Source of the DNA: Alphaproteobacteria bacterium
GTDB lineage: Bacteria; Pseudomonadota; Alphaproteobacteria; ATCC43930; CGMCC-115725
NCBI GenBank assembly: GCA_028871455.1
Contig: JAGWNF010000009.1
Coordinates: 1 to 64,000, forward strand
Direction of reading: 5' to 3'
Length of the DNA stretch: 64,000 nucleotides
A model generated the notes under the pieces. The model had not been told where the DNA came from. It searched no databases and was given only the letters and a program-made list of their open reading frames with translations. Below, in pieces: positions 11,559-59,547 of this stretch (the stretch's first letter is position 1; every line of letters starts with the position of its first letter). Both the position numbers and the translations under genes were made by a program.

Positions 11559-11561
11559 CGT

Positions 11562-12917: not shown

Positions 12918-12944
12918 GTCGCCCGTGTCCGATCCCGTCGCCGA

Positions 12945-16129: not shown

Positions 16130-16383
16130 GTAAGCCACCCCCGCTGCCTGAGATGCCGCACGACGACGGCTGCGAAATCGGGATCGCGCTTGGCAGCGAA
16201 GACGCTCAAGGAGTGGCCGAGGACCCAGAACAGGAGCCCGGCCAGCCACACCTGGAGCCCGAGGCCGAGCGCGGCGGCGAGCGTGCCGTTGAGAATCGCA
16301 ATGCCGCGCGGCGCGCCGGCCAATAGGATCGGCTCGGTGAGCGCGCGGTGCAGCGGCACCTCGAAGCCCTCGATCCGCGCCAT
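16123..16383 (-). CDS. trbD: Conjugal transfer protein TrbD (VirB3-like)
   Basis: An 86-residue VirB3-type protein: EGFEVPLHRALTEPILLAG at the N-terminus, one or two membrane helices (about 27-58) and a basic C-terminus with the family pattern AAKRDPDFAAVVVRHLRQ. Its ATG overlaps the trbC stop by one base and its stop overlaps trbE, so translation is coupled throughout. VirB3 works closely with VirB4 at the inner membrane. Confidence 0.92.
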   Translation of the reverse strand: MARIEGFEVPLHRALTEPILLAGAPRGIAILNGTLAAALGLGLQVWLAGLLFWVLGHSLSVFAAKRDPDFAAVVVRHLRQRGWLTC

Positions 16384-16718
16384 CAGACAAGCGCTCCCCC
16401 GCCGAAATTGAAAAACGACAGAAAGAAGCTCGACGCCGCAAAGGCGATCGAGAGCCCGAAGACGATCTGGATGAGCCGCCGGAAGCCACCGGCGGTCTCG
16501 CCGAAAGCGAGCGTGAGACCCGTGACGATGATGATCATCACCGCGATGATCTTGGCGACCGGGCCTTGCACCGAATCGAGGATCTGCTGGAGCGGCTGCT
16601 CCCACGGCATGTTGGAGCCGGCGGCATAGGCCTCCCCGCACATAAGCAGCGTGGCGCCGGCTGCCGATGCGAGAACCCGCAGGATGCGGGAAGATGAAAC
16701 GGGCAGAGAGAAACGCAT
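16383..16718 (-). CDS. trbC: Conjugal transfer pilin TrbC (VirB2-like)
   Basis: A 111-residue prepilin with a long signal sequence (cleavage probably near AYA-AGSN at about 33) and two hydrophobic segments (about 55-72 and 82-105) separated by a short basic loop, FGETAGGFRRLIQ. This is the VirB2/TrbC major-pilin layout. In the RP4 TrbC system the pilin is cyclised by a TraF peptidase; a TraF-like S26 peptidase is encoded at 34290, so the same maturation is plausible. Confidence 0.92.
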   Translation of the reverse strand: MRFSLPVSSSRILRVLASAAGATLLMCGEAYAAGSNMPWEQPLQQILDSVQGPVAKIIAVMIIIVTGLTLAFGETAGGFRRLIQIVFGLSIAFAASSFFLSFFNFGGGALV

Positions 16719-16735
16719 GGGGTCGGTCCTTTCGT

Positions 16736-17728: not shown

Positions 17729-18156
17729 GCCGTACCTCCCGCGCCGTTGTGCCCGTCGTGCTCGGCATTACCGAGCTCGCGCCCGATCGTGCGGCCGCCG
17801 GCGATGCGGCGTCCGACCTGCTCGATGAAGGCCTGGTAGCGGTCTTGCGCCACCGCCCGCGCCGCGGCCTGCTCGGAGTCTGGCAAGGGTGCGGTGACGG
17901 TGAACTCGTAGCGGACGAAGAGCGCGAGCGTCTCAAGGAGGATCTGGATGTCGCGCTCCATGCGGCCGAGCTGCGTGGTCACGCGGTCGAGGCGCACTTT
18001 CAGAAGATCGTCGAGCTCCTTCGCGCCACGGCGCGCGAGATAGGCGCGCAAGGCGTCCGCCACGATCGCGGATTTTGAGGTGCCGGGTTTCGACGCGAGC
18101 GCATCGAGCTTCGCCGTCAATTCGTCGTCGAGATAGAGGTGGTGGCGCGGCTTCAT
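17725..18156 (-). CDS. CopG-type ribbon-helix-helix regulator
   Basis: A 143-residue protein with an N-terminal ribbon-helix-helix (RHHLYLDDELTAKLDALA then GTSKSAIVADALRAYLARRG, residues 3-45) followed by a helical middle (VTTQLGRMERDIQILLETLA). It lies between traG and trbB in a fixed position of this element type. CopG-like genes here are thought to repress the transfer operon or to assist the relaxosome; neither can be shown from sequence. It is 13 bp after traG and overlaps trbB. Confidence 0.85.
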   Translation of the reverse strand: MKPRHHLYLDDELTAKLDALASKPGTSKSAIVADALRAYLARRGAKELDDLLKVRLDRVTTQLGRMERDIQILLETLALFVRYEFTVTAPLPDSEQAAARAVAQDRYQAFIEQVGRRIAGGRTIGRELGNAEHDGHNGAGGTA

Positions 18157-18169
18157 TCATGCACCTCCT

Positions 18170-20215: not shown

Positions 20216-20649
20216 GTTCGCTGTCTCCACCGGGCAGCGCCAAGCGCGTGTCCGGGCTCTGAGACAGGAATCCGGCAGATCGCCGGAAAGAGAAATCCGC
20301 TTTATCTACGCCCAAATGGGTTTATGTGCGCCTTGCCCAACACATCGTTACTCGAAGAGCTGAAATGAAGTTCGCCTTACGGGTCGAGCGAGCCTTATCG
20401 GGCTCGTTCTTGCAAAAGGCAAACGTGTTAAGAACGTTGCTTCTTCTCCGGTCCTGAGGCTGTCGATCTCGACGAGCTCGTAACCAAATTCCTCATTCCC
20501 AAACTATGGTGTTGGGCGCGCGGGATCGGCAACCGAAGGGCCGAAATCCGCCTAGCGGGAACTCGGCAGGGCTTGGCGAGCGACGCAAGCCTAGCGCCGT
20601 ACAACCCGGTTCCGGCCTGTGGTCGGTCGCGTCCGGACGTGAATCTGAT

Positions 20650-44110: not shown

Positions 44111-44323
44111 TCAGAACAGGTGAAGCTGGTTGCGCGCGTCCTCGTCGAACAAGCCGATGTTCAAGGGCTTCTGCGGCTTGCGCGGCGCAAGCGGTGCCGC
44201 CATCAGCAAAGCGAGGCGCTCGCGCGCCGTGATCGGGCGGACGCCGGGAATGAGCGTCTGCTCGCCTTCCGGCGTTCGCTCGGATTGCAGCGCGGCCATG
44301 TTGTCGGGATGTGGCGCGGTCAT
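44111..44323 (-). CDS. Small hypothetical protein between ArdC-like and DUF2958 genes
   Basis: A 70-residue protein starting at MTAPHPDNMA (44323), whose ATG overlaps the stop of the ArdC-like gene (ATGA). The sequence TPEGEQTLIPGVRPITARER and KPLNIGLFDEDARNQLHLF is typical of short proteins found in this position in related elements. No domain is known. Overlap on one side and 13-bp spacing on the other show it is part of the operon. Confidence 0.7.
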   Translation of the reverse strand: MTAPHPDNMAALQSERTPEGEQTLIPGVRPITARERLALLMAAPLAPRKPQKPLNIGLFDEDARNQLHLF

Positions 44324-45276
44324 GCCGAGGCCTCCATCACCTGCACGGTTGACGCGACGGATGACGCGGCCTCTTGCTGAAAGCCGAGGATGAAGTCCGC
44401 CGCTTTGCTGGCGAGGCTTGCGGCGCGGAAGATGGCGCGGTTGTCCTCGCGCAAAATCGCGAGCCATGCGGCGAGATAATCGGCATGGCGCACGGTCGGC
44501 ACGATAGCGAGGCTGGCGCAAAGGAACGCGCTCGCCATTTCGGCAACCAGTTCCTCGCGCCCATAGGATTTAGAGCCGAAGCGGCCCGACAGGTCGCGGT
44601 TCAGCCGATGGCTTGCGCCGCTCCAATGCGAAAGTTCATGAAAGCAGGTGCGATAGAAATTGATCTGCTCGAAGAAGGCGGGCTGCGGCGGCAGTTGGAT
44701 GTAATCGCCGTTTGGCGCATAGAAGGCGCGATCCCCGCCGATGCGGATGTCGGCACCGGTCGCCGCAACCAGCGCCTCGGCCTGCGGCACGATCTCGCGC
44801 GCGGGCAGCGGCTCAGGCTCCCCTTGCAGCCGCTCCAGCCCGTCGCATTGCGCGACGTTGAACACGGTAAAGCGCTTGAGGAACGGCACCGCTTCCGGCT
44901 CGTCGCCATCCTTCGCCGCGCGCTCGATCTCGGCTTTGGGAATGAAGCGGTCGGCATAAAAGACCGTCGTGCCGCGCTCGCCCTTGCGGACGTTGCCGCT
45001 CAAGTCCAGCGCCTGCCGGAAGGTAAGCCAATGCTGCGCGGCAAAGCCTTTCTCGATGACCGCGCCCCACAGGATCAGGATATTGATCCCGGAATAGCGC
45101 CGTCCCGTGGCCGCGTTCTTCGGCAGGCCCAGGCCCGCCTTGACCTTTCCCCAAGGCTGCACCCAGGGCACCCGCCCCGCTTCCAGCTCGGCGATGATCT
45201 TGTCGGTGACGTCCTGATAGAGGCTGCCCCTGTCGCGGCCTCGCCCGTTGCTCCGCTGCTTGCCGGTCTCGCTCAT
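44320..45276 (-). CDS. ArdC-like antirestriction protein
   Basis: A 318-residue ArdC-type protein starting at MSETGKQRSN (45276), with GGAGG upstream. The N-terminal ssDNA-binding domain (about 15-145; LYQDVTDKIIAELEAGRVPW, RYSGINILILWG, HWLTFRQALDLSGNVRKGER) is followed by a zincin-like metallopeptidase domain with HELSH at 213-217 and YGREELVAEMASAFLC downstream. ArdC proteins protect incoming conjugative DNA from host restriction. It heads the ArdC-small-DUF2958-parB block. Confidence 0.85.
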   Translation of the reverse strand: MSETGKQRSNGRGRDRGSLYQDVTDKIIAELEAGRVPWVQPWGKVKAGLGLPKNAATGRRYSGINILILWGAVIEKGFAAQHWLTFRQALDLSGNVRKGERGTTVFYADRFIPKAEIERAAKDGDEPEAVPFLKRFTVFNVAQCDGLERLQGEPEPLPAREIVPQAEALVAATGADIRIGGDRAFYAPNGDYIQLPPQPAFFEQINFYRTCFHELSHWSGASHRLNRDLSGRFGSKSYGREELVAEMASAFLCASLAIVPTVRHADYLAAWLAILREDNRAIFRAASLASKAADFILGFQQEAASSVASTVQVMEASA

Positions 45277-45372
45277 GCGCAAGCCTCCGCTCCGCAAAAC
45301 CTCGCGCGCCTTTCCCCGGAAGCGGGGTGGGCGGCGAGATGCGACCGGAAAGGCCCGCCGAAAGGCGGGCCG

Positions 45373-45412
45373 CACCCGAAGGGCCGGAACGAAGTGGAGG
45401 ACCCGGAGCGAA
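45373..45412. repeat. GC-rich repeat shared with 35663-35702
   Basis: The partner of the repeat at 35663 (ACCCGAAGGGCCGGAACG followed by GGAGGACCCGGAGCGAA). It lies 97 bp upstream of the ArdC-like start codon, in the gap 45277-45744, which otherwise holds hairpins but no supported gene. Confidence 0.45.
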
Positions 45413-45521
45413 GCGCAGGGTTGCGGCACGCCGCGGCGGGCCTAGAAGGGAGCGCCGCCCACCCCGCGCCACCGGGAAAGGCCAACGAACAAGTTCATCG
45501 CGTGAAGCGCGATGGCCTTGT

Positions 45522-46443: not shown

Positions 46444-46983
46444 CTATTTCAAGAGCCGCCGGTATCCGCCGTGAACCAGCGTCTCGCCAAGCCGGATGAG
46501 GCGTTGGACGCGGCAGCGAAGATAGGCGGAGGCGCCGTTCCAATCGGCGTCGACGGTTGCCTGGCCAAACAGCGCGACCGCAATCTCACGGTGGCTCGCG
46601 CCCGTCGCGCGAGCATCCCATGCCCGCAAGGCCATCATCCAGCGGCGTGCACGGCGGTTTGCGGGAACGAGAGCCTGCGGAAAGCGATGCAACCGCATCA
46701 GGGCAATGAGGCGGCGCAAGGTCAGCAGCTTGGCGTCGACCGCCGCCGCCCCGGAAAGATCATAGCGAAAGCAGACCGGGCCGTTGAGAACCGTCCCGCG
46801 TGCAACATCGAGGCGAACCTGGCAGAACCCGTCGCCGATGAGCAGGTGTTCGACTCCATTGCGGCGCTTCAACACCAAGACTGGTGAAGCTAGACGCATG
46901 ACATCAAAGGCATCCGGATCATTTATGCTTGCCGCGGCGGCCTCGACGGTAACGACGGCAGGATCGCTATCAGCGCGCCACAT
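46444..46983 (-). CDS. DUF2285 family DNA-binding-like protein
   Basis: A 179-residue DUF2285 protein: LRRLIALMRLHRFPQALVPA, MMALRAWDARATGASHREIA, VALFGQATVDADWNGASAYL, RVQRLIRLGETLVHGGYRRL. The second half looks like a helix-turn-helix, and the family is annotated as DNA-binding-like. It overlaps by 14 bp the small gene upstream, a pairing seen repeatedly in these elements. Likely role: control of replication or transfer genes; this is by association. Confidence 0.82.
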   Translation of the reverse strand: MWRADSDPAVVTVEAAAASINDPDAFDVMRLASPVLVLKRRNGVEHLLIGDGFCQVRLDVARGTVLNGPVCFRYDLSGAAAVDAKLLTLRRLIALMRLHRFPQALVPANRRARRWMMALRAWDARATGASHREIAVALFGQATVDADWNGASAYLRCRVQRLIRLGETLVHGGYRRLLK

Positions 46984-47509: not shown

Positions 47510-47830
47510 TCAGTGAAGGTTCGCGCCGAGCGGCCTGCCCTCTTCGGCGGCCTGCTCGAGGAGCCGGCGGTAGCCCTGCGTCGTCATCCAGCGCGCGCGC
47601 GCGAGATGCGTTTCCCAGCAGCGACGCGTGCGCTCGAACTCGTCCGCCGGGTCCCGATGCAAGACGATGCGTGCGACCTCACACCAGTCGGCTCCTTCGG
47701 ACTCGGCGTCGAGCAGGCGCAGATAGGTGACCAGATGCTCCTCGTCATAAGGTGTCAGATCCTCTGACCACGGCACGCTGTCCGCAACATCGGGGTCAAG
47801 CTTCGCCGCGAGCGGCCGTTCGTTGGTCAT
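47510..47830 (-). CDS. DUF2285-like protein
   Basis: A 106-residue protein starting at MTNERPLAAK (47830). The sequence PWSEDLTPYDEEHLVTYLRL, LDAESEGADWCEVARIVLHR, DPADEFERTRRCWETHLARA, RWMTTQGYRRLLEQ resembles the short proteins annotated as DUF2285 in conjugative elements. It diverges from the XRE gene at 47944, with an inverted repeat between them. Confidence 0.7.
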   Translation of the reverse strand: MTNERPLAAKLDPDVADSVPWSEDLTPYDEEHLVTYLRLLDAESEGADWCEVARIVLHRDPADEFERTRRCWETHLARARWMTTQGYRRLLEQAAEEGRPLGANLH

Positions 47831-47887
47831 CCTTCCATCTCCCTTTGCACGGGTGCCGCTGGAGCCCGCCACAATATCCTGTTCTGG

Positions 47888-48289: not shown

Positions 48290-49252
48290 CTAGTGCCTGG
48301 AAGGGGTTGAACGGGACGGTGGGCCAGGGCGCGAACGGCGGTATTGGGCCGGTGTCGTCCCGACAAGCTTGCGGAAATTGAACGTCAAGTGACTCTGGTT
48401 TGCGAAGCCCACATCGGCGGCGATCTCGGCGATCGGTCGGGCATCGGTGAGTAGCAGCTGTCTCGCCCGCTGGATTCGCCGCTCGATCAGATAGCGATGC
48501 GGCGCAATGCCGGTGCTTGCTTTGAAGGCCTGCCCGAAATGATGCGCGCTTAGTCCTGCGAGGTTCGCCAGCTCGACGAGCGCGATATCGGCACCGAGAT
48601 GCGCCTCGATATAATCGAGAAGGCGACGAAGCAGAGCGGGCGGAAGCCCCCCGCGCGCCCGGCGTGGCTGCGCACGCCTCTCCGCGTAGCGGCGGAAAAG
48701 ATCTACGGTCAACGCTTCGGTGAGGCTCTCGAGGTAGAGGCGTCCATTGGCGCCCTCGTTGGCAAGCTCCTGCTCGAAAAGCGTGGCAAAGCATCGAATC
48801 GTCTGATCGTCGATGCCGATCTGCGTCGTCATATTGACATCCGTAAGCGCGAGGTCCGTTGCGGTCTTGGCCAGGAAATCAAGTTTGACGGCGACGATTA
48901 ACATGGACGCCGGCTCGGGCCAACGAACCCACCATGGCTCGCTCGCGGCGTCGATGAAAGCGCTTCCGGGCACGAGCATCTGTGACCGAAGAAGGTCGGA
49001 TTCCGGTGTCCGCCAGGAAAATCGCTGGGCGGGGCTGCGATAGATTGCGACGGTGAACAATCTGCCGCCGACGGGCATGCCGGGACTGGCCGCCACGAGA
49101 CTGTCCGCAACGACGATGCCGCCAAGCTGTATGCGACGCTTACGGAAAAGAATGAGCGCGTCGTCGGGATTGCTGGAAGTTATTCGATTCAGCCGCCGAG
49201 TTTTGCGCGGATCAGCGCAGGGAGGACCGTCCAGTGATTGGATTCCGTTCAT
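48290..49252 (-). CDS. AraC-family regulator
   Basis: A 320-residue AraC-type regulator starting at MNGIQSLDGP (49252), with GGAGAGGG upstream. The N-terminal sensor half (about 1-195) contains PRKTRRLNRITSSNPDDALI; the C-terminal DNA-binding half has two helix-turn-helices (IALVELANLAGLSAHHFGQA, PIAEIAADVGFANQSHLTFN). It diverges from the FTR1 gene at 49676 with an iron-box-like dyad between. A near-identical copy of about 100 bp of its 5' end lies at 59408. Confidence 0.88.
   Translation of the reverse strand: MNGIQSLDGPPCADPRKTRRLNRITSSNPDDALILFRKRRIQLGGIVVADSLVAASPGMPVGGRLFTVAIYRSPAQRFSWRTPESDLLRSQMLVPGSAFIDAASEPWWVRWPEPASMLIVAVKLDFLAKTATDLALTDVNMTTQIGIDDQTIRCFATLFEQELANEGANGRLYLESLTEALTVDLFRRYAERRAQPRRARGGLPPALLRRLLDYIEAHLGADIALVELANLAGLSAHHFGQAFKASTGIAPHRYLIERRIQRARQLLLTDARPIAEIAADVGFANQSHLTFNFRKLVGTTPAQYRRSRPGPPSRSTPSRH
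49113..49213. repeat. Direct repeat copy A (5' end of the araC gene)
   Basis: About 100 bp inside the AraC gene that recurs in the same orientation at 59408-59508 with scattered mismatches; the shared core includes AATGAGCGCGTCGTCGGGAT and GATTCAGCCGCCG. The two copies bracket the whole iron/flavin module. Confidence 0.75.
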
Positions 49253-49358
49253 GCTGCTTCCCTCTCCATGTGCCAACTGCCGGCGCGGGCGTGTCGCCCG
49301 GTGGTGAGGAGCCCGAAGGGCCGCTCCGGTACACGTAATTGTGAGTATATGCAAATAG

Positions 49359-49377
49359 TTCGCAGTTGCAATGCGAA
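49359..49377. promoter_or_regulatory. Iron-box-like palindrome upstream of ftrC
   Basis: TTCGCA-GTTGCAA-TGCGAA is a perfect 6-bp dyad spanning 19 bp, the width of a Fur box, and similar to known GCGAAT/ATTCGC-type Fur sites. It lies between the divergent AraC and FTR1 genes. The remainder of the 49253-49675 gap shows no gene. An Irr-like regulator is encoded at 55482. Confidence 0.5.
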
Positions 49378-49675
49378 TGCGTTTCAATTACACGTGAGAT
49401 TCCGGACGGGAGAGGGCGGGCCGGACGCAACAAACGTAGGGACGGGAATGCACGAACTAGTAAGCGCACCTCTGTTTGGCGTCCCGCCATGGGGAAGCCT
49501 CCAAAACGGCGCGAAATGCGGTGCAGCCGTCTCGACTTGGAGCCGACTGCTGCGGCGAAACGCCTGGGGGTGTGAAGGCGGCAGGAGGAAATCCGTCGAA
49601 TCCCCGGACGGCGTGGAGACCGATTCCACGCGTAAGGCGAAGCAAGGCGGCATACAGATCGAGGGATAAGACGAC

Positions 49676-50506
49676 ATGGCCGCAGCACTCATCATCGTTT
49701 TCCGGGAGGTCATTGAGGCCGGCTTGATCGTCGGCATCGTGCTAGCCGCGACCCGCGGCGTGCCCGGCCGGAGCCTGTGGGTCGGCTACGGGATTGGGGG
49801 CGGCGTTGCCGGGGCAGGCATCGTGGCCCTGTTTGCCGGTGCGATCGGCAGCGCGTTTGCCGGATCGGGACAGGAGCTGTTCAACGCGACGATCCTGACG
49901 ATTGCCGTCCTCATGCTCGGATGGCACAACGTCTGGATGGCGCGGCACGGCCGGGCCATGGCGGCCGAGGTCAAGGCCGTCGGCGAGGCGGTGGCCGCCG
50001 GCAACCGCACCCTTGCGGCTCTGGCCATCGTCGTGGGCATCGCGGTATTGCGCGAAGGCTCCGAAGTCGTGCTGTTCCTCTACGGCGTCGCCGTTTCCGG
50101 GAACGACACGGCCGCGGCCATGGGAACAGGCGGAGCCATCGGAGTACTGCTCGGCGCCGGAACGTCCGCCTTGATGTATTACGGTTTGCTGCGCATTCCC
50201 GCCCGCTACCTGTTCTCGGTGACGAGCTGGCTTATCGCCCTTCTCGCCGCCGGTTTGGCGGCCCAGGCAGCTGCCTTCCTGCAAGCCGCTGGTGTCGTTA
50301 CGGCGTTTGCACAAACGATGTGGGACACCTCGCGGATACTCGCGGACGGCAGCCTGCCGGGCAGGGTCCTGCACACGTTGATCGGCTACACGGATCGGCC
50401 TACGGCGCTGCAGCTCGCCGTCTATGTTGCCACGCTCGCGACCATCTTCGTGCTGATGCGGATGTTTGGATCGCAACCGCGCCAATCGAATGCAACGCGC
50501 GCGTAG
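49676..50506 (+). CDS. ftrC: FTR1-family iron permease (FtrC)
   Basis: A 276-residue inner-membrane permease of the FTR1/OFeT family with seven predicted helices. The two iron-binding motifs are FREVIEAG (R10-E11-x2-E14) and VLREGSEVVLFL (R126-E127-x2-E130). In the FtrABCD system this permease imports ferric iron produced from ferrous iron by P19 and cupredoxin partners. Here ftrB, ftrD and ftrA lie 6-9 kb downstream rather than adjacent. The region 50507-50834 after it holds a possible iron box but no gene. Confidence 0.92.
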   Translation: MAAALIIVFREVIEAGLIVGIVLAATRGVPGRSLWVGYGIGGGVAGAGIVALFAGAIGSAFAGSGQELFNATILTIAVLMLGWHNVWMARHGRAMAAEVKAVGEAVAAGNRTLAALAIVVGIAVLREGSEVVLFLYGVAVSGNDTAAAMGTGGAIGVLLGAGTSALMYYGLLRIPARYLFSVTSWLIALLAAGLAAQAAAFLQAAGVVTAFAQTMWDTSRILADGSLPGRVLHTLIGYTDRPTALQLAVYVATLATIFVLMRMFGSQPRQSNATRA

Positions 50507-50660
50507 GAATGGATCGTGCTTATGGGGGTATGGAGGACGTGCTTCACGAGCATACAAACAGGGCGAGATCACCCTTCGCGCCTTGCGCGTCGCCCTACTG
50601 CTATCTGCGCCGGAACGGGCGGCCGGTGTGGCCTGATCGGCGTGACGTGCGGAACCGGTC

Positions 50661-50677
50661 TATGATCATCATTCGCA
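50661..50677. promoter_or_regulatory. Possible Fur-type iron box upstream of hemP
   Basis: TATGATCATCATTCGCA reads on the other strand as TGCGAATGATGATCATA, close to the repeated NAT(A/T)AT hexamers of Fur boxes. It lies 160 bp before hemP. Symmetry is imperfect, so the call is tentative. Confidence 0.35.
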
Positions 50678-50834
50678 GCTTCGGCCCGGTCGTCATTTCG
50701 CACCTCTTGAGTATGGACGCTGCCGAGCCGAGGCCCGTGCCGAGTGACAGAGCAGGCCCGAGCGTTATGGAGTTTTGTGGCGACTGGCGCAGCAGCGGCC
50801 TGCCTAGCGCTCGACCTGGGGAACCGATGCAGCG

Positions 50835-51008
50835 ATGAGCACGGCCAATTTGAATCGGCTGGATCAAGAGCCGCCGACCGGACGAACGGTCCCGAAAGTC
50901 GCGAGCGAACAGATCATGCGGGGACAGCGCGAGATCGTGATCCAGCACGGCCCCGAAGAATATCGTCTCAGGATCACTGCAATGGGAAAACTGATCCTGA
51001 CGAAATAG
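50835..51008 (+). CDS. hemP: Haem uptake protein HemP
   Basis: A 57-residue protein, too short for routine calling. The C-terminal half is the HemP signature: GQREIVIQHGPEEYRLRITA followed by MGKLILTK at the end. HemP proteins are small regulators or accessories needed for expression of haem transporters in rhizobia and Burkholderia. It sits upstream of the porin gene and inside the iron module, which supports the call. Confidence 0.85.
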   Translation: MSTANLNRLDQEPPTGRTVPKVASEQIMRGQREIVIQHGPEEYRLRITAMGKLILTK

Positions 51009-51120
51009 CCGCGGGCGTATGCGCCCGTATCCATCGTAGCCAGCCACCCGCGCCCGCAGGGGCGTAAGGCAGCCAGCCAGAAACCCGATCCGCGCTGCGG
51101 ATCAGAACGGGAGGTTGGTG

Positions 51121-52707
51121 ATGCCCCTGCCACGAGAGAAGCCTCTTGCCTGTGAGGCGCCGATTGAATTGAAGGCGGAAACAGGCGCGAAAGCAGGTCG
51201 TTCGATCGTACTCCGATCGGTGTCATCGCTCGGAGCGACAGTTTTGATCGTCGGACTGTCGCTCCTAGGTGCGAGCGGAAACGAAGCGTTCGCCGCCGAC
51301 AACGCAGGCACCTCCGTAGCCGCGGCGCCGCCGTCGAACGAAGAGCTGCTCAGGGAAATGAATGCGATGAAGGATCGCATGCACGCGATCGAAGACCAGC
51401 TTCGCCGAAACGGCTCGCCGGGAACGGCGCCGAATGGACCGGCGACGGCCCAGACCGGGCCGTACGGTGGCCAACCGGCGGCCGGCAACAAGGACATCTT
51501 CGGTCTCTACAAGTCGCCGGTCGAGGGACTCAAACTCGGCGCCTACGGCGAGTTCAAGTTCGGGAGCATGCAGAATCCTGACGCTAACGGCCAATGGCAG
51601 AACGGCTTCGATGGCGGACGGCTGGTGTTGCTGCCAAGCTATCAGATCACCGACAATATCAGCTTCAACTCGGAGGTTGAATTCGAGCACGGCGGCATCG
51701 CGGCAGACGCCGACGACAAGTTGAACGGCACGGCCGAGATTGAGCAAGCGTTCATCGATTTCAAGGTCCGGCCCTGGATCAATTTCCACTCACCGGGGAT
51801 CGATCTCGTTCCGATCGGCTTCACCAACCAGACCCACGAGCCGACGACGTTCTACAGCGTTCAGCGACCTGAACTGGCAAACGGCCTGATACCCACCACC
51901 TTCTTCGTGCCGAGCTGGGGTACGGTCTATGGTCAGATCACGGATAATCTCGGCTACCAGTTCCAGGTCAGCAACAGCGCCGAAGACTTTGGCGACAGCT
52001 TCGATTCTCGGACGGATGCCAACACGGTTCCCACCGGCGCCTATGCAGCGGGGATCGACGGCAAGAACGCGCTCGGACTCTCGCGGCCGCCGGTCGGCGA
52101 TTTTCGCCAGCTCAACAACGACTTCGCCTACGCCGCACGGCTGCACTATACGCTTCCCTTCGCGCCGGGGCTGGCCGGCAGCTCGAGCGTGTACTTCACG
52201 CCCAACGTCGAGCCGCGTGGCGCCCATTCCGATGTCGGGACGAGCCTCGGCAATTCCAGCCTGACGCTTGTCGATTCAGAGCTCCGCTACCGCGTTCCAG
52301 ATACCGGCTGGGAGTTCCGCGCCGAATACGCGGAGGCCTTCTTCGGAAGTCCCGGAAATCTGCGCGCCAACAACGACAGCGACGCGACGAACAACGTCGG
52401 AGACACGATGTACGGCCTGTCCGGTGAGGTCGCCTATCACGTGCCGCTCGGCACGATCATCGGCAGCTCATGGGAAGCGGTTCCCTTCTACCGCTACACT
52501 TACGAGAACCTCCAGACGGGCGGCTTCAAGGGGACGGACGCAAACACGCCGACCGGCGCTGGCAAGCTGCAGTTCCACGATGTCGGTGTCGCCGTGTTCC
52601 CCAGTCCCAAGCTCGTCTTGAAGCTGAACTACACGCATGTCGAAAGCGATGAGTCGGGCGGCGCCAAGTCGGATTCGATCCTCGGCGCTGTCGGGTTCTT
52701 TTTCTGA
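51121..52707 (+). CDS. Outer-membrane porin
   Basis: A 528-residue protein starting at MPLPREK (51121) with GGGAGG upstream. An N-terminal extension (about 1-40) precedes a signal sequence (LGATVLIVGLSLLGASG, AFA cleavage). A short coiled coil (EELLREMNAMKDRMHAIEDQ) comes next, and then a beta-barrel of alternating strands ending in the aromatic GAVGFFF typical of outer-membrane insertion. The coiled coil-barrel layout fits phosphate-selective or carbohydrate porins. In this neighbourhood it may serve iron or haem entry, but the substrate is unknown. Confidence 0.82.
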   Translation: MPLPREKPLACEAPIELKAETGAKAGRSIVLRSVSSLGATVLIVGLSLLGASGNEAFAADNAGTSVAAAPPSNEELLREMNAMKDRMHAIEDQLRRNGSPGTAPNGPATAQTGPYGGQPAAGNKDIFGLYKSPVEGLKLGAYGEFKFGSMQNPDANGQWQNGFDGGRLVLLPSYQITDNISFNSEVEFEHGGIAADADDKLNGTAEIEQAFIDFKVRPWINFHSPGIDLVPIGFTNQTHEPTTFYSVQRPELANGLIPTTFFVPSWGTVYGQITDNLGYQFQVSNSAEDFGDSFDSRTDANTVPTGAYAAGIDGKNALGLSRPPVGDFRQLNNDFAYAARLHYTLPFAPGLAGSSSVYFTPNVEPRGAHSDVGTSLGNSSLTLVDSELRYRVPDTGWEFRAEYAEAFFGSPGNLRANNDSDATNNVGDTMYGLSGEVAYHVPLGTIIGSSWEAVPFYRYTYENLQTGGFKGTDANTPTGAGKLQFHDVGVAVFPSPKLVLKLNYTHVESDESGGAKSDSILGAVGFFF

Positions 52708-52811
52708 GGAGGCAGAACACTCGGATGCCGGCGGCAAGATTTTGGGACGTGTCACGCGATCTTCCGCCGGCTCCAGGTGATGGCCAAGTCTCCTAAGAGG
52801 AAAAAACAACA

Positions 52812-53369
52812 ATGACGGAATGGCTGAAATGGACAGCACCGCCCGCTATCGTTTTATCCGTCGCATCGCCAGTCTACGCGACCCAGTATGTTACCGTCGA
52901 ACAAGCCCAGAAGCTGGCCTTCTCGGAGGCAACACAATTCGTATGGGCGCCGGTCGTCTACACGCCGGCGCAAATCACCGCGATCGAGAAACTTTCGGGA
53001 CAGCGGGTCCTTACACGGGGCGAGCAGGTTTGGAAGGCCGAGCGGGACAAGCGGTTTCTCGGTTTCTTCATCGTCGACTACGTCATCGGGAAGCATCTCG
53101 CGATCGACTATGCGGTTGCCCTGGACCCGCAGGGCCGCGTCAGCCGGGTCGAAATCCTGAACTACCGCGAAGCGTATGGAGGCGAGATCAGGGACGCGGA
53201 CTGGCTGAAGCAGTTCGTCGGCAAGACAAGTCACGATCCTCTCGCACCCGGCCGGGATATCCGCATCATCTCGGGCGCCACGCTCTCCTCGCGGCACGTG
53301 ACCGAGGGCATCAAGCGCGTCCTCGCCCTTTACCAGATCGTTCTTAGGCACACTGCTGATGACAAGTAA
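52812..53369 (+). CDS. Exported FMN-binding domain protein
   Basis: A 185-residue protein with a signal peptide (about 1-23, VYA cleavage). The C-terminal half is an FMN_bind domain: GFFIVDYVIGKHLAIDYAVA, DPQGRVSRVEILNYREAYGG and the attachment motif IISGATLSS, in which T157 should carry covalent FMN. ApbE, encoded just downstream and overlapping by 11 bp, would attach it. Such flavoproteins pass electrons outside the cytoplasm; in iron modules they are proposed to drive ferric reduction. Confidence 0.88.
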   Translation: MTEWLKWTAPPAIVLSVASPVYATQYVTVEQAQKLAFSEATQFVWAPVVYTPAQITAIEKLSGQRVLTRGEQVWKAERDKRFLGFFIVDYVIGKHLAIDYAVALDPQGRVSRVEILNYREAYGGEIRDADWLKQFVGKTSHDPLAPGRDIRIISGATLSSRHVTEGIKRVLALYQIVLRHTADDK

Positions 53370-54264
53370 TATCCAGCGCGCGCGACCGCTGCTCGGCACT
53401 GTTGTCGAGATCATCGTCGCCGGCACGGCAGATCGTGACGGCAACGCAGCCGTCGACGCGGCGTTCGATGTCGCAGCGCATGTCCATCGCCTGATGAGCT
53501 TTCACGAGGCGGGCAGCGACGTGAGTTGGGTCAACCGCGAGGCCGAAAGGCACGCCGTCCAGGTTCATCGGTGGACCTATGACGTGCTCAAGACGGCGCT
53601 CGATCTCTATCGTCGTTCGCGTGGGCTGTTCGACATTGCGATCGCGCCCACCCTGCAGGCGTTGGAAGCTCTGCCAAAGATGGCCCGCGATGTCGCATCG
53701 CCGGCGACACCGCACGCCGGCAGCGCAGCGATCGAGCTGCTCCCGGACTGCCGTGTTCGTTTTCACGAGTCTGGGATCATGGTCGACCTGGGCGGCATCG
53801 CCAAGGGCTTCGCGGTCGACCGGGCGGTGGAAGCCCTGAAAGATCAGGGCGTGGCGTTGGGTTTCGTCAACGCCGGTGGAGATATCGCCGTCTTCGGTTC
53901 AGAGGCGTATCCAATCCAAATCCGCGATCCCCGCGAGCCGTGGCACACCGCCTTGCAGATCGATCTCAAGGACGAAGCTGTGGCATCCAGTGGCCCATCC
54001 TTCGATCCTGTCGTTGCGAGCCGTCCGACGCGTCCAGCAATCCTCGATCCGTTCCACCGGATTCCCGCGCATGCCATCGTCGGGGCCTCGGTCTGCGCCC
54101 CTTCCTGCATGGTCGCTGATGCCCTCACGAAGATCGTGATGCTGTCCGGCGAGCGGTGCGGCGAATTGCTCCGTCACTACAACGCCAGTGCAATGTTCGT
54201 CGCCGCCGGCGGGGAGATTCACATGACCAAAGATTGGCGAAGGGCGGTGCATCTTGCGGCTTGA
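53359..54264 (+). CDS. apbE: FAD:protein FMN transferase ApbE
   Basis: A 301-residue ApbE. Motifs: RARPLLGTVVEIIVAG at the N-terminus, DVSWVNREAE, GLFDIAIAPTLQALE, MVDLGGIAKGFAVDRAVEAL, LGFVNAGGDIAVFG and the metal/FAD site ADALTKIVMLSGE. It transfers FMN from FAD to a Thr of its target. No cleaved signal peptide is evident, so the site of action is uncertain. The FMN-binding protein before it is the obvious substrate. The next gene starts at a TTG within its last codons. Confidence 0.9.
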   Translation: MTSNIQRARPLLGTVVEIIVAGTADRDGNAAVDAAFDVAAHVHRLMSFHEAGSDVSWVNREAERHAVQVHRWTYDVLKTALDLYRRSRGLFDIAIAPTLQALEALPKMARDVASPATPHAGSAAIELLPDCRVRFHESGIMVDLGGIAKGFAVDRAVEALKDQGVALGFVNAGGDIAVFGSEAYPIQIRDPREPWHTALQIDLKDEAVASSGPSFDPVVASRPTRPAILDPFHRIPAHAIVGASVCAPSCMVADALTKIVMLSGERCGELLRHYNASAMFVAAGGEIHMTKDWRRAVHLAA

Positions 54265-54778
54265 TCCTCGTTTTCGGGCGGCAGTCTACATCGTCTTTGG
54301 CGTGCTCTTCGTCACGGGCGTAGCCTGGCTGCTCGTAGACCGTCGGTGGTCGGTCGGCTCAGGAGATACGTGGCAGACCGCGTCCGCGTACCTGCTCATG
54401 GTCCACGGCGGTGCGGCCATGGTGTTTCTGCTGCTCCTGGGCGCGATAATTTCGCTACACGTTCCGACGGTCTGGCGATCGCGCAAGAACCGGGCTTCCG
54501 GAACGGTCATGCTGGTGACCAACACTCTCCTCATCGTCTCCGCGTTCGGACTCTACTACGTCGGCGCGGAGACCCTCCGAAACTGGACGAGCGATCTGCA
54601 CATTGCGATTGGATTTGGCATGCCGGCCATTCTGGTTGCTCACGTGATCCTTGGGCGACGCAGCCTCCGGGTCGCACAACGCAATACTGCGGGCCGTGTC
54701 ATCGAACGCGACGGGCGAACGAGACTGCGGCGCGCCCGCGCAGCCTCGCTGACAAAGAGCACAGGAGAAGGCCGATGA
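54254..54778 (+). CDS. DUF4405-like four-helix membrane protein (possible haem b protein)
   Basis: A 174-residue inner-membrane protein starting with TTG at 54254 (AAGGG upstream). Four helices are clear: AAVYIVFGVLFVTGVAWLLV, ASAYLLMVHGGAAMVFLLLL, LVTNTLLIVSAFGLYYVGAE, LHIAIGFGMPAILVAHVILG. His residues inside or at the ends of helices (MVHGG, SLHVP, DLHIAI, AHVIL) could ligate haem b. DUF4405-type proteins accompany ApbE/FMN-binding proteins and feed them electrons. The tail is highly basic. Confidence 0.7.
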   Translation: MRLDPRFRAAVYIVFGVLFVTGVAWLLVDRRWSVGSGDTWQTASAYLLMVHGGAAMVFLLLLGAIISLHVPTVWRSRKNRASGTVMLVTNTLLIVSAFGLYYVGAETLRNWTSDLHIAIGFGMPAILVAHVILGRRSLRVAQRNTAGRVIERDGRTRLRRARAASLTKSTGEGR

Positions 54779-55275
54779 GCCGACTTGACCAGGAGTCCGG
54801 ACTGTCCCACGCGGCCGCATTTTGCGACCTAGCGGTCGCGGAGCGCCTGATCGTCTGGTCGTTTCGCTGCTGGGTGTCCGATTCCGAGCGTTGGCCGCTT
54901 GTTTGGCAAGAATTCACGCGGCAATTCCCGGCCGACTTGGCACGGCCTGCCATGCGCGCGTTCGAAGAGTTTGTCGCCGGCATTTGCCGGCGGGCGCATC
55001 GTGTCATCCACTATCACCAACCGTGCTGTCCATGCCTCGGTAGCGATGAGCTGCACGTCTTGTCGATCATCGCAGCAGCGCAGCGGAACGACATAGGCGC
55101 GGCGGAGAATGCCTGCCGGCGGCTCGTCTATGAGGATGGGGTCGAAGGCTTGTTCACGACGGCAGCGAGGTTGGGGCGGATCATGACATCGCGCGGCTTG
55201 CTGCTGCCGCGGCGCTTGGACGGCGCGGGCGACCCCGCTTGGATGGAAACGGAACCCCAGCAATGGCTTCATTAG
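54775..55275 (+). CDS. Hypothetical protein of the flavin/iron operon
   Basis: A 166-residue soluble protein whose ATG overlaps the previous stop (ATGA). It contains IHYHQPCCPCLGSDELHVLS, a His/Cys-rich patch with CCPC that may bind metal, in an otherwise helical sequence (VAERLIVWSFRCWVSDSERW, AFEEFVAGICRRAHR). Similar proteins occur beside FMN-binding and ApbE genes, but no function is known to me. Confidence 0.65.
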   Translation: MSRLDQESGLSHAAAFCDLAVAERLIVWSFRCWVSDSERWPLVWQEFTRQFPADLARPAMRAFEEFVAGICRRAHRVIHYHQPCCPCLGSDELHVLSIIAAAQRNDIGAAENACRRLVYEDGVEGLFTTAARLGRIMTSRGLLLPRRLDGAGDPAWMETEPQQWLH

Positions 55276-55481
55276 ACGGACGCGGAATCATGCCTCGCTT
55301 GCGTCATCCGCCATCGACGAGACCATGATGGGAAATGATGGCCGTGCCGATTTGGCTCTCGACCCCAGTCCTCAACTCATGCTTGGCAAGCGGAACATTG
55401 CCGATGAGCAGCCCCGCCTGAAGAAGCCGGTGCTAGCGATTCTTGCATGTGGTGAAACTGCATTCGCCCTGCGGAGGGACA

Positions 55482-55928
55482 ATGAAACGGACATTGGAGC
55501 AGCTCTGCACTGACATCGGGCTCAGAATGACCCGGCAGCGTCGAACGATCATCCAGGCGATCGAAAACGCAAGCGATCATCCGGACGCTTGGAGCATTTA
55601 CTTGCGCGCCGGAAAGGCAGATCCGCAGATTTGCCTCAGTACCGTGTATCGAACACTGCGGATTTTCCAGAACGCTGGAATCCTGGCCGGTCACCGCTTC
55701 AAGGATGGTTTGCACCGGTTCGAGCGGGATTCCGACGAGCGGCACGGTCATCTGATCGATCGGACGACGGGCAAGATAATCGAATTCCGTGACCGGGAAA
55801 TCGAGCGCCTGCAATCGGCGATTGCCGAACACCATGGCTATCGGCTGGTTGGCTATCGGCTCGAGCTCATCGCAACGCCACTTACGCTGAAGGAGACCGC
55901 CAAAGGTCGGGAGGATCGCGTTGGGTGA
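55482..55928 (+). CDS. Irr-like Fur-family iron regulator
   Basis: A 148-residue Fur-family protein starting at MKRTLEQLCT (55482), GGAGG upstream. The winged helix is MTRQRRTIIQAIENASDHPD then LSTVYRTLRIFQNAGILAGH. The metal region reads DERHGHLIDRTTGKIIEF, lacking the CxxC pairs of Fur and having the HLIDxxTG pattern of Irr. Irr represses or activates iron genes according to haem status in rhizobia. It could act on the dyads at 49359, 56732 and 58698. Not proven to be Irr itself; a second Fur-family paralogue is possible. Confidence 0.8.
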   Translation: MKRTLEQLCTDIGLRMTRQRRTIIQAIENASDHPDAWSIYLRAGKADPQICLSTVYRTLRIFQNAGILAGHRFKDGLHRFERDSDERHGHLIDRTTGKIIEFRDREIERLQSAIAEHHGYRLVGYRLELIATPLTLKETAKGREDRVG

Positions 55929-56065
55929 GGGCGTCGATCGTACCGTAGTGATCGCTCGTGAGCTGTTGAACCTGGCGCAGGTCGGTGTTCAGGACGGACA
56001 GACGCTCCGCCCACAGTAAGACACGACGTCTCATTCGAGCGGCGAGACCGGAATGGGAGTTCAAT

Positions 56066-56635
56066 ATGGGTGGCATTCAAAGAGACGGCACGAAGGTCGA
56101 CACGGTCGACGTGGCAGTATTGATGGTTACAACCTTTGATGCCCTGTCGATCGATGGGATCGTGAAGGCTCTGAGCAACCTTGGCGCACCGTCCTGGCGG
56201 CCTGTCACGGATGTTGTCGCGGGCGCGATTGACCGCCTCGTTGGCCAGAATCTCATCGCACCGCTCACGTCGCCGTCGGAGTCACCCGTGCACGAGACTT
56301 CTGTGCGCCTCGCGTCGACCCCGGCAGGGCGACATCGGCTGCCGGGTCTGTTGCGGGCACTGCCGCTTCCTGCCTACGGCTCGGACATCACCTACAGGCT
56401 GAAAGTCATGGGTCTCGATCTCTTGGACCGTCAGGATCGCGAATACCAAATCTCGGAGCTCGCAGGTCACTGGCAGGGGGTGCTTGCCCTATGGGAGCGG
56501 GCGCAGGAGCGGTGCCCGTGCATGCAGCCGACGGTCCGCCTGTGGATGAAGCGAAACGTCGCCCTGGCTCGGATGGAGATCGACTGGCTGCAGTCGGACT
56601 GCATTCAGCCAAGGAGCAAGATGTCCGTCGAGTAG
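56066..56635 (+). CDS. Winged-helix-like hypothetical protein
   Basis: A 189-residue protein starting at MGGIQRDGTK (56066), GGGAG upstream. The first half resembles a PadR-like winged helix (VDVAVLMVTTFDALSIDGIV, WRPVTDVVAGAIDRLVGQNL, RLASTPAGRHRLPGLLRALP). The second half is helical with a CPC pair (ERCPCMQPTVRLWMK). No clear match to a characterised family. It lies between the Irr-like gene and ftrB. Confidence 0.55.
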   Translation: MGGIQRDGTKVDTVDVAVLMVTTFDALSIDGIVKALSNLGAPSWRPVTDVVAGAIDRLVGQNLIAPLTSPSESPVHETSVRLASTPAGRHRLPGLLRALPLPAYGSDITYRLKVMGLDLLDRQDREYQISELAGHWQGVLALWERAQERCPCMQPTVRLWMKRNVALARMEIDWLQSDCIQPRSKMSVE

Positions 56636-56731
56636 CAGGGCCTGCTCGCCATGCGGCGCATAACGGACGGCGACTGCTTGCATCATCAGATCGGAATCGC
56701 GGATTCGTGGTTAGAACTGGCATCATGTGAT

Positions 56732-56752
56732 TGCAAATGAGACTTACTTGCA
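56732..56752. promoter_or_regulatory. Iron-box-like site upstream of ftrB
   Basis: TGCAA-N11-TTGCA is an inverted repeat containing AAATGAGA, one half of the usual Fur-box pattern. It lies 57 bp before the ftrB start, in an AT-rich promoter-like stretch. Confidence 0.4.
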
Positions 56753-56808
56753 GTAATGTGGCACCGCCACGGCGCGTTGCTTAGCCATCGCCTTCTGGAA
56801 AACGGACC

Positions 56809-57153
56809 ATGAAAATAATGAGGATAGCGTCCTGTCTTGCCCTGGCAATTTGGCTGCCGATGGTTGCTGGAGTCGCAGTTGCCGCCGAGGCACCTTCAGT
56901 TGTCATCGTCATCAAAAACCATCGCTTCGTCCCGCCGCAGGTCACCGTCCCCGGCGGCAAGCGCATCGAATTGATCGTCGAGAACCACGATTCGACGCCC
57001 GAGGAATTCGAGAGCACCGATCTGCGCCGCGAAAAGATCGTGGTCGGGAATGGCAAGACCTCGGTCTGGGTCGGCCCTCTGCCGGCCGGCACCTATGGCT
57101 TCTTCGGTGATTTTCATCCGACGACCGCTCAGGGAAAGCTAATCGTGAAGTGA
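56809..57153 (+). CDS. ftrB: Periplasmic cupredoxin-like protein FtrB
   Basis: A 114-residue exported protein (signal about 1-26, VAAEA) with a cupredoxin-like domain: VVIVIKNHRFVPPQVTVPGG, RIELIVENHDSTPEEFESTD, GPLPAGTYGFFGDFHP. In Brucella and Bordetella FtrB is proposed to oxidise Fe(II) bound by FtrA before uptake through FtrC. The gene precedes ftrD and ftrA. No classical type 1 copper Cys is present, which is normal for this family. Confidence 0.85.
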   Translation: MKIMRIASCLALAIWLPMVAGVAVAAEAPSVVIVIKNHRFVPPQVTVPGGKRIELIVENHDSTPEEFESTDLRREKIVVGNGKTSVWVGPLPAGTYGFFGDFHPTTAQGKLIVK

Positions 57154-57287
57154 GGCAATCGTGCGGGATACGCGCCTAACATGCTCGATGGCCGGACGGC
57201 GGCAGTTCCGCCTCGCGGGCGGTCGCGGGCGAGGCGACAAAGCCGGACAGAGAGACAAGCCCGGGTCCAACGTCATCCGAGGATCGC

Positions 57288-58679
57288 ATGACCATCGGAC
57301 GTAATGATACCATCGTGCCGTCGGCGTCGGGAACGATCACTCGTCGGATCGAAGCGGTGGTGATCCGTGCCCGGCCGTTCCTGCCCTTCGTTCATGCCAC
57401 GATGGCCGTGTTCTTCATTGGGCTCATCGCCCTTCCGGTTCTGTTGCCTCCGACCCACGTTACCAAAGTTCTCGCCGGCGCCGCCAATTGGCTCATCTGG
57501 GGTCTCTGGTTCCCACTGGTATTTCTCTCCGTGCTGTTCAGCGGTCGAAGCTGGTGCGGGGCGCTGTGTCCGATGGGTGCGGCATCGGAGTGGCTTAACC
57601 GGATCGGCTTGAAACGGCCGGTACCCCGATGGCTGCGCTGGGAGGGCGCACCGATCGTAAGCTTCCTGGTGATCACGATCCTTGGGCAGACGGTCGGCGT
57701 GCGGGACTACCCGGATGCGATCCTAGAGGTGTTTGGCGGCACGCTCGCGGCTGCCCTCGCCGTTGGATTTCTCTATGGGCGTGGACGCGAAAAGCGCGCC
57801 TGGTGCCGGCATGCCTGCCCGATCGGCCTTCTGCTCGGCGTGTTCTCCCGGCTCGGCATCGTCGATCTGATGCCGAAGCGGCCTGTAGCTGGCGGGGATA
57901 CGTACACGGAGCGTGGCCTGTGCCCGACCATGATCGATCTCAAGCGCAAGACCGAAAGCCGTCACTGCGTCATGTGCTTGCGCTGCGTCCAGCCAGATCG
58001 GGCCGGCGGGCTGCAGCTCCGCCTGCGGGCGCTGGGCGCGGAGGTGGCCGATATCGCCCATCATCATCCGGTCGCGTCCGAGCTGTGGTTTCTTTATCTC
58101 GGGACTGGTGCAGCGTTGGGCGGCTTCCTATGGCTGGCACTGCCGCAGTACCAGTGGCTGCGCCAGGTCATTGGCGCTTGGGCGATCGATCGGGGTTGGA
58201 CGTGGATCGGCAATCCTGGGCCGGCTTGGCTGATGGTCGTTCATCCGGAAGCGCGCGAGGTATTCGTCTGGCTCGATTTCTTTCTGATCGTGGGCTGGAT
58301 GGTCGGCGTCATGTTGGTGCTCGCCGCGGCGCTGGCGCTATCGAACGTCCTGACCGCGGCGCTCGCTGGACGGTTCGGTGCCGCCGCGCCGTTTCGCAAG
58401 CGGCTCGTCATCACAGGCTACCAGGTGGCGCCAGCCGCCATGGTTTCGCTGTTGCTCGGGCTTGGCATCGAGCTGTTCGGGCTGATGCCGGCCAACCTGG
58501 CCCGCGTGGTCGAGCTTGGATTGCTGGCGACCTCCGTTCTGTGGGGCGCGTCGCTCGGCTGGCGCATCCTTGGCAATCTCGGGCTGCAGGGTATCGGTCG
58601 CGTTGTCAGCCTGGTTCCGGGCATCGCCGCGAGCATCGGGATTGCGGCGGCATGGTGGCCGGCCATTGCCGGAAGCTGA
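57288..58679 (+). CDS. ftrD: FtrD-like membrane 4Fe-4S polyferredoxin
   Basis: A 463-residue inner-membrane protein with about eight helices and clusters of Cys: SWCGALCPMGAASEW, WCRHACPIGLLL, and further on HCVMCLRCVQPDR, consistent with NapH/RdxA-like 4Fe-4S sites. FtrD is believed to move electrons across the membrane for FtrABC-driven iron uptake. Its start lies 135 bp after ftrB and ftrA follows it by 66 bp. Confidence 0.85.
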   Translation: MTIGRNDTIVPSASGTITRRIEAVVIRARPFLPFVHATMAVFFIGLIALPVLLPPTHVTKVLAGAANWLIWGLWFPLVFLSVLFSGRSWCGALCPMGAASEWLNRIGLKRPVPRWLRWEGAPIVSFLVITILGQTVGVRDYPDAILEVFGGTLAAALAVGFLYGRGREKRAWCRHACPIGLLLGVFSRLGIVDLMPKRPVAGGDTYTERGLCPTMIDLKRKTESRHCVMCLRCVQPDRAGGLQLRLRALGAEVADIAHHHPVASELWFLYLGTGAALGGFLWLALPQYQWLRQVIGAWAIDRGWTWIGNPGPAWLMVVHPEAREVFVWLDFFLIVGWMVGVMLVLAAALALSNVLTAALAGRFGAAAPFRKRLVITGYQVAPAAMVSLLLGLGIELFGLMPANLARVVELGLLATSVLWGASLGWRILGNLGLQGIGRVVSLVPGIAASIGIAAAWWPAIAGS

Positions 58680-58697
58680 ATTTTTTTGAATGTGGAA

Positions 58698-58712
58698 TGC
58701 GATTGCGTCGCA
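58698..58712. promoter_or_regulatory. Small dyad before ftrA
   Basis: TGCGA-TTGCG-TCGCA, a perfect 5-bp dyad in the ftrD-ftrA gap, resembles half of the TGCGAA/TTCGCA dyad before ftrC. It may be a weaker regulatory site. Confidence 0.3.
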
Positions 58713-58745
58713 GTGTCATCAACAATCGACCAAGCGGAGGTACTT

Positions 58746-59276
58746 ATGAAACGGACTGGGATAATCGTTGCGTCTATGCTGATGCTGCTGGCGGCAGCCA
58801 GCGCCAACGCGGCAGAAACCGAAATCGGCAAGGCCGTTGCGAAGAACGGCATGGAGATCGGCGCAGTCTATCTGCAGCCCGTTATCATGGCGCCGATGAT
58901 GCCCGGCATGGACGGCAGCTACGACGTACATCTCGAAGCGGATATCCACGCTCAGAAAGGCAACAAGAATGGCTTCGGTCCGGGCGACTGGATTCCGTAT
59001 CTCGGCGTCACCTACCGTCTCGAGAAGCTCGGATCGGATTGGAAAACGTTTGGCGCCTTCATGCCCATGGTGGCGAACGACGGGCCTCATTACGGCGCCA
59101 ACGTGAAGCTCGATGGTCCGGGCAAGTACCGCCTGACCTACCGCATCATGCCGCCGCCATACCAGGGCTTTTACCGCCACACCGACAAGGAGACTGGTGT
59201 CGACGAATGGTGGTCGCCGTTCAGCGTGACCTGGGAGTTTCCTTTTGTCGGCGTAGGCAAAAAGGGAACCTATTGA
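58746..59276 (+). CDS. ftrA: Periplasmic iron-binding protein FtrA (P19 family)
   Basis: A 176-residue P19-type protein starting at MKRTGIIVA (58746), with GCGGAGG upstream and a signal peptide (about 1-22, NAA-type end). Family segments: LQPVIMAPMMPGMDG, DVHLEADIHAQKGNKNGFGP, FMPMVANDGPHYGANVKLDG and WWSPFSVTWEFPFVGVGKKG; Met and His residues bind copper and iron. P19/FtrA collects ferrous iron for the FtrC permease. It is the last intact gene of the module. Confidence 0.9.
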   Translation: MKRTGIIVASMLMLLAAASANAAETEIGKAVAKNGMEIGAVYLQPVIMAPMMPGMDGSYDVHLEADIHAQKGNKNGFGPGDWIPYLGVTYRLEKLGSDWKTFGAFMPMVANDGPHYGANVKLDGPGKYRLTYRIMPPPYQGFYRHTDKETGVDEWWSPFSVTWEFPFVGVGKKGTY

Positions 59277-59389
59277 GGGCCATTTGCGGACCTCGGCGCT
59301 GATATTCCTGCGGCTGGCGACAATGATACGGAAGTGACATGGAGTAGCGTGCGACGAGTTGAGGGCGCAGACCAAACAACGGGCCGATT

Positions 59390-59547
59390 ACATCGAGTTG
59401 CGCAATGACGATGCCGCCAAGCTGAACCCACCCTTCGCGGGAAAGAATGAGCGCGTCGTCGGGATTGCTGGAAGCTATACGATTCAGCCGCCGCGTTTTG
59501 CCTGGGTCGGCGAAGCGAGGATCGGCCCGTAGATGGAAACGGCTCAT
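59390..59547 (-). pseudogene. Remnant of an araC gene 5' end
   Basis: Only the N-terminal part of an AraC-type regulator remains: RFADPGKTRRLNRIASSNPD then DALILSREGWVQLGGIVIAQ, matching the intact gene at 48290-49252 (DPRKTRRLNRITSSNPDDAL, ILFRKRRIQLGGIVVADS). After about 50 residues the similarity ends and no DNA-binding domain follows. The rest of the 59277-59597 gap has no gene. Confidence 0.75.
59408..59508. repeat. Direct repeat copy B (araC remnant)
   Basis: The second copy of the repeat at 49113-49213, in the same orientation and 10.3 kb away, lying within the araC remnant. The central AATGAGCGCGTCGTCGGGAT block is identical in both. Confidence 0.75.

Follow-up and report, generated by a model that had tools for sequence, protein, structure and literature searches.

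How did the beginning of one regulatory gene come to stand on both sides of a block of iron-uptake and flavin genes? The question is raised by a 64,000-nucleotide stretch of an alphaproteobacterial genome (assembly GCA_028871455.1, contig JAGWNF010000009.1, positions 1 to 64,000; hereafter the window), for which the original prediction described a direct repeat of the 5' end of an araC gene around the genes from ftrC to ftrA. The window lies in an integrative and conjugative element (ICE) that measures about 100.5 kb and sits at guaA, a setting that the original prediction missed. Our preferred reading, which we hold to be reasonably probable, is that recombination left the repeat as a scar where the core and the cargo of this guaA-integrated ICE meet, the block having joined via a second, diverged araC gene.

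A diverged repeat of the araC 5' end

The gene and the two copies of its beginning are the following.

48293..49252, minus strand: araC copy A, an intact 320-aa AraC-family regulator and the last gene of the ICE core (Pfam HTH_18, 1.5e-23; HTH_AraC, 6.4e-15)
49106..49252, minus strand: repeat copy A, codons 1-49 of araC (ungapped codon alignment; BLAST core 49106-49235)
59401..59547, minus strand: repeat copy B, 5' stub of an araC homologue, 49 codons long (codon alignment; BLAST core 59401-59530)

BLASTN aligned 49106-49235 with 59401-59530 in the same orientation, at 84.0% identity over 131 columns, with E = 2e-32 when 48001-60500 was compared with the window (limit E <=1e-3) and 1e-31 when the window was compared with itself (limit E <=1e-5). 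Neither comparison yielded a repeat besides this pair, which is also the top self-match of the entire 112,527-base contig; the 5 other self-matches listed for the contig at E <=1e-6 are 63-307 bases long, 70-84% identical, and all located past 74 kb. When 188 bases around copy A were compared with the whole genome of the same organism (3.0 Mb, 51 contigs), copies A and B alone were recovered. The E-value of about 1e-31 rules out chance similarity. The repeat thus stands as originally described, with a true span slightly longer than 49113-49213 and 59408-59508 and with copies that have diverged.

From the minus-strand ATG codons at 49252 (A) and 59547 (B), 49 codons align ungapped, with 30 of the 147 bases different, and past codon 49 no similarity between A and B was detected by BLAST. 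Given the shared start codon register and the lack of anything common beyond codon 49, copy B is a 5' stub of an araC homologue. The start of araC A is a chosen ATG, the open frame reaching back to a TTG at 49387. The original prediction of a duplication or insertion that used the regulator gene as its junction holds inasmuch as araC is the junction; a recent insertion duplication is excluded because the two copies are too diverged.

The differences between A and B are clustered, the longest identical run being 33 bp (shuffle p = 0.006 for the 147 bases, 0.018 for the last 120 bases, that is, without the first nine codons, and 0.009 by codons), which could reflect either gene conversion or protein constraint. 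The flanking repeats, 84% identical and in the araC codon register, do not fit an insertion with target-site duplication or a composite transposon, for which near-identical repeats or a transposase at the ends would be expected; the Pfam scan of the block, which did not take in every small frame, recognized no transposase family. No Rfam family reached its gathering score in 48000-61000, so no known structured RNA was recognized at the repeats. A promoter scan gave one promoter-like site, at 49371-49344, before araC A and none near B, and a terminator scan gave 2 terminator-like sites near B vs 0.9 expected. The junction spacers showed matches of 15 bp only to other loci.

araC as a core gene of an ICE at guaA

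Integrated at guaA, the ICE spans about 100.5 kb of the contig; its excision and transfer are predicted. The left end and the core genes next to araC are these.

5083..5098, plus strand: attL, a 16-bp copy of the guaA 3' end (BLAST E 0.001)
44320..45429, minus strand: ardC, an antirestriction gene of the ICE core (Pfam ArdcN, 6.3e-41)
46444..46983, minus strand: second DUF2285/RovC-domain protein (Pfam RovC_DNA-bd, 8.4e-20)
47510..47872, minus strand: short, QseM-sized DUF2285/RovC DNA-binding domain protein, adjoining araC (Pfam RovC_DNA-bd, 8.2e-9)

An identical second 16-bp att copy is found beyond the window, at contig 105572-105587, 100.5 kb from attL, and a tyrosine integrase (Phage_integrase, 1.7e-21; contig 104011-105252) is encoded beside guaA, itself confirmed by Pfam (GMP_synt_C, 3.1e-44). 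In a genome of the same genus (G003), a single contig bears both the left flank of the window (up to window position 3667) and guaA; a distance of 1.5 kb (9474 to 10975) separates the two, there is one att copy, and the ICE is absent. The flank and guaA are also close to each other on contig C195 of G002 (locus L062), likewise a genome of that genus, where there is no ICE. The guaA contigs G001 C165 and G002 C60 stop short of the left flank and are uninformative on the ICE-free site. Window positions 3668-5082 have no counterpart in G003 or G002, and the exact left edge of the ICE is therefore less certain.

Two side observations concern this site. The L062 region 8802-9640 contains a further copy of the guaA 3' end (8802-8872 and 9612), 0.8 kb before guaA, so that the site there is not simply empty; it looks as if a small element or remnant occupied the same guaA location. 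Around attL, the segment 3668-5236 of the window has a low GC content of about 53-54% and includes a weak HSDR_N match (4586-5236, E 0.0008, below the cut-off); the part of it outside attL may be the remnant of another insertion at the same site.

The linkage of araC was assessed in 8 relatives, namely the matches at E <=1e-40 and three further loci, a set outside which the weaker AraC-family matches fall. Seven of these loci have enough flank (L028, L029, L033, L034, L044, L045 and L046), whereas L030 ends within araC. A short gene of the DUF2285/RovC type is located near araC in all seven, and ArdC is present in five of the seven stretches, that is, in all except L045 and L046. L028 and L029 share the order of the window (araC, DUF2285, DUF2285, a lipoprotein-like gene, ardC) with other genes 5' of araC, and their DNA similarity to the window breaks off within araC, at 48562 and 48631, respectively. 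The constant company of the ICE regulator gene indicates that araC does not belong to the iron module; neither an araC match nor a stub (E <=0.01) was found in seven stretches around the ftr genes of five other genomes. Thus, araC is a regulator of the ICE core.

Control of the ftr genes by araC was rejected, since araC travels with ICE genes. Its best NCBIfam match is a regulator named FtrA, at 75.8 bits vs a cut-off of 425, a name that we assume to be unrelated to the iron protein ftrA. In the arrangement studied here, araC is the final core gene ahead of about 56 kb of cargo. Non-core genes lie on the 3' side of araC in L034, a locus on a separate contig of the same genome. Given that the position of araC varies among the relatives, it is the border gene in this arrangement rather than by a family-wide rule.

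ICERspD18B and GIsul2 reportedly use guaA as their target. PF10074, which we take to correspond to DUF2285, scored above its cut-off in both DUF2285/RovC proteins of the window, the one at 46444..46983 being possibly FseA-like. The name guaA occurs 13 times in the paper on ICERspD18B (PMC7775301) and 10 times in that on GIsul2 (PMC9376610). ICEMlSymR7A with FseA and QseM (PMC10359603) resembles the present element in that DUF2285/RovC-domain proteins, one of them short, are encoded in a conjugative element; FseA is compared with RovC in that paper. Unlike ICEMlSymR7A, the present ICE sits at guaA and carries araC beside a DUF2285 gene; the words AraC and guaA are absent from the main text of that paper. 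A literature search joining ICE, DUF2285 and guaA found no paper, a statement limited to that search, and one joining ICE, AraC, guaA and cargo found nothing beyond a Streptococcus suis review.

Origin of the repeat

Under the preferred reading of the repeat as a border scar, the block from ftrC to ftrA would have joined the ICE at the 5' end of araC through recombination with a second, already diverged araC that most likely came from a related ICE. One araC (A) would have been left whole and the other (B) would survive as 49 codons beyond the block. When the core frames were compared with the 56-kb cargo, the only match was that of araC to stub B; the core set comprised 48 frames of 90 aa or more, chosen by a simple script whose output both misses some real genes and includes spurious ones, and it was supplemented manually with araC and one DUF2285 gene. 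Among plasmids, the DNA matches to 58600-62700 start to the right of the stub in the best 8 of 982 records. DUF2285 loci are present on three contigs of the same genome (C14, C21 and C30), so ICE-like partners can coexist; C21 (L034) and C30 (L080) hold two further DUF2285-ArdC loci, and the C30 stretch has no araC match.

Several observations weigh against this reading. No close araC of the A or B type was found in the genomes of relatives (146), of the order (43) or of the class (385), sets that overlap and include the organism's own genome, and the DNA of B has no match in 60 other genomes. In the same genome, the sole other araC match at E <=1e-20 is 42% identical and located on C21, adjoining genes that we take, from their translations, to be CoA-transferase-like. 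In L033, L044, L045 and L046, core genes flank araC on both sides, so that it is not at a core/cargo border there. Over codons 10-49 of A and B, we estimated dN at 0.13 and dS at 0.37, and the excess of third-position differences falls short of significance (p 0.12 for these codons, p 0.39 for all 49), which leaves separate evolution of A and B as working genes unproven. Nor does anything indicate that a single event delivered both block and stub. As no intact parent gene of B turned up in these genomes, its descent from another ICE is inferred rather than observed, and the same holds for the sequence of events and for the arrival of block and stub together. A scan of viral contigs recovered no araC relative, and a tblastn search of araC against plasmids (1657 records) gave no match of at least 60% identity, the best 15 being at 29-36%. 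Moreover, no relative with both the iron module and a close araC was found, and thus two full araC genes at the ends of the module, the arrangement expected from decay of an ordinary paralogue, have no case either way.

The main rival to recombination between ICEs is tandem duplication with decay: an old duplication of araC in the ICE lineage, one copy of which was mostly deleted, with the iron/flavin genes inserted independently between the two. The shared orientation and codon register of A and B agree with this scenario, as does their kinship: araC relatives aligned over the greater part of their length share 34-44% identity with A (L030 reaches 59%, over just 102 residues), so that A and B, with relatives this remote, are mutually the closest kin found here. 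Against a duplication, a second long araC DNA match was seen in none of the stretches of 12.6-20.8 kb at the seven relative loci, the three matches in L033 being 26-39 bp long and outside the 5' end. On balance, we regard the tandem duplication as possible, if rather unlikely.

Had the block entered as a circular DNA through one crossover within araC, its genes should stand in permuted order, because closing the circle brings ftrA beside ftrC. The order in G003 (cupredoxin-ftrD-ftrA-ftrC) is indeed a rotation of that in the window, but those in G095 (cupredoxin-ftrC-ftrD-ftrA) and G085 (ftrA-cupredoxin-ftrC-ftrD) are not, the four genes standing together in a different order in each of the three genomes; a rotation is expected in 3 of 23 cases if all orders are equally likely, so the agreement counts for little. 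Such a circle must also have carried a piece of araC, and no such piece was detected in the seven stretches that surround ftr genes in other genomes. We consider this route improbable. The same grade applies to the start of araC as a self-repairing docking site for cargo, at which related ICEs would swap blocks, each time leaving a working regulator and a stub, with the block remaining losable.

The joint expected from loop-out between A and B, which fuses the start of B to the body of A, is an in-frame chimeric araC of 320 aa, in line with the original prediction. The excision by homologous recombination proposed along with it is conceivable but, with 84% identity and an identical run of at most 33 bp, probably rare; the estimate follows from what is generally known of recombination. 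A present-day switch, in which frequent recombination between A and B excises the 10.3-kb block from some of the cells, would benefit from the intact frame of the chimera and from gene conversion as a source of the clustered differences; the clustering may equally stem from protein constraint, and the identity of only 84% over 131 columns speaks against such a switch, which we deem very unlikely. Mosaic evolution of an ordinary kind, not an operating switch, seems to account for the arrangement.

If the preferred reading of a border scar is correct, the locus preserves a readable trace of how cargo may join next to an ICE core, and in any case it places a block of iron-uptake and flavin genes on a large conjugative element. 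A recurrence of such scars at the araC start of other ICEs would mark it as a site of cargo exchange; here, there is a single case.

Gene content of the block and of the ICE

Pfam matches (FTR1, FMN_bind, ApbE, FUR, Cupredoxin_1, Fer4_5, Iron_transport) bear out the enclosed genes, ftrC through ftrA, as they were originally named.

49676..50506, plus strand: ftrC, FTR1 iron permease (Pfam FTR1, 9.6e-32)
51115..52707, plus strand: 530-aa protein, porin-like by reading only (no Pfam or NCBIfam match)
52812..53369, plus strand: FMN-binding domain protein (Pfam FMN_bind, 5.1e-9)
53359..54264, plus strand: ApbE flavin transferase (Pfam ApbE, 4.2e-47)
54254..54778, plus strand: small membrane protein, membrane by reading (DUF4405 at best, E 0.032, below the cut-off)
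54775..55275, plus strand: possible 166-aa gene (open frame; a longer frame, 54346-55275, has no Pfam match)
55443..55928, plus strand: Fur-family regulator (Pfam FUR, 1.3e-32)
55985..56635, plus strand: AphA-like regulator (Pfam AphA_like, 1.9e-11)
56809..57153, plus strand: cupredoxin, ftrB-like (Pfam Cupredoxin_1, 1.3e-29)
57288..58679, plus strand: ftrD-like ferredoxin membrane protein (Pfam Fer4_5, 5.2e-11)
58746..59276, plus strand: ftrA / P19 iron-binding protein (Pfam Iron_transport, 5.8e-59)

The block encodes all four Pfam families of the FtrABCD iron-uptake system (permease, cupredoxin, ferredoxin membrane protein and P19-type protein), and iron uptake is predicted. The ftr comparison comprised seven stretches from five genomes, the ftrA matches in G068, G117 and G091 being left out. 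The ftrA relative in G003 is 83% identical; no ftrC match was found in the fetched stretch of G016, and neither an ftrC nor a cupredoxin match in that of G079. Unlike the clusters of G003, G095 and G085, the block in the window has ftrC parted from the other three genes by the flavin set and the regulators.

Close ApbE homologs (E <=1e-40) were detected in four others of the 385 class genomes. In all four loci, a relative of the small membrane protein adjoins ApbE; the FMN_bind, ApbE and membrane protein genes occur together in three (G343, G046 and G359), and the latter two in the fourth (G365), with no ftr matches in the stretches of 18-20 kb around them. Because the ftr cluster and the flavin set are separate elsewhere, the block appears to have been assembled from two sets. 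The row of FMN_bind, ApbE and small membrane protein genes resembles the ApbE/FMN-binding sets for extracytosolic electron transfer (PMC8238504); unlike those, it is carried by an ICE and separates ftrC from the remaining ftr genes. The flavin set may serve as a redox partner for iron. The 530-aa protein has partial matches, at 29-38% identity, in 2 others of the 385 genomes and is of no use as a marker of the module.

The remaining core features of the ICE in the window, among whose core proteins Pfam also recognized a ParB_N domain, are the following.

8611..20230, minus strand: conjugative transfer block, with TrbI at one end (1.8e-63) and the coupling protein at the other (T4SS-DNA_transf, 3e-106), the remainder read by eye
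13667-16489: TrbE-like protein within the transfer block (CagE_TrbE_VirB, 9.2e-12)
31165..33153, minus strand: DUF3363 protein, which we take to be the relaxase of the ICE (Pfam DUF3363, 2.9e-153)

Just inside attL, at 5454-7063, a HipA_C protein adjoins a helix-turn-helix protein, likely a toxin-antitoxin pair of the HipBA type. Past the window, in region 64001-104000 of the same contig (G000:C14; L038 and L039), Pfam identified a pyridine nucleotide-disulphide oxidoreductase, presumably a mercuric reductase, and two heavy-metal P-type ATPases (E1-E2_ATPase with HMA); judging by the translations, we assume that several MerR-type regulators are encoded there as well, and metal-resistance genes seem to make up the remainder of the cargo.

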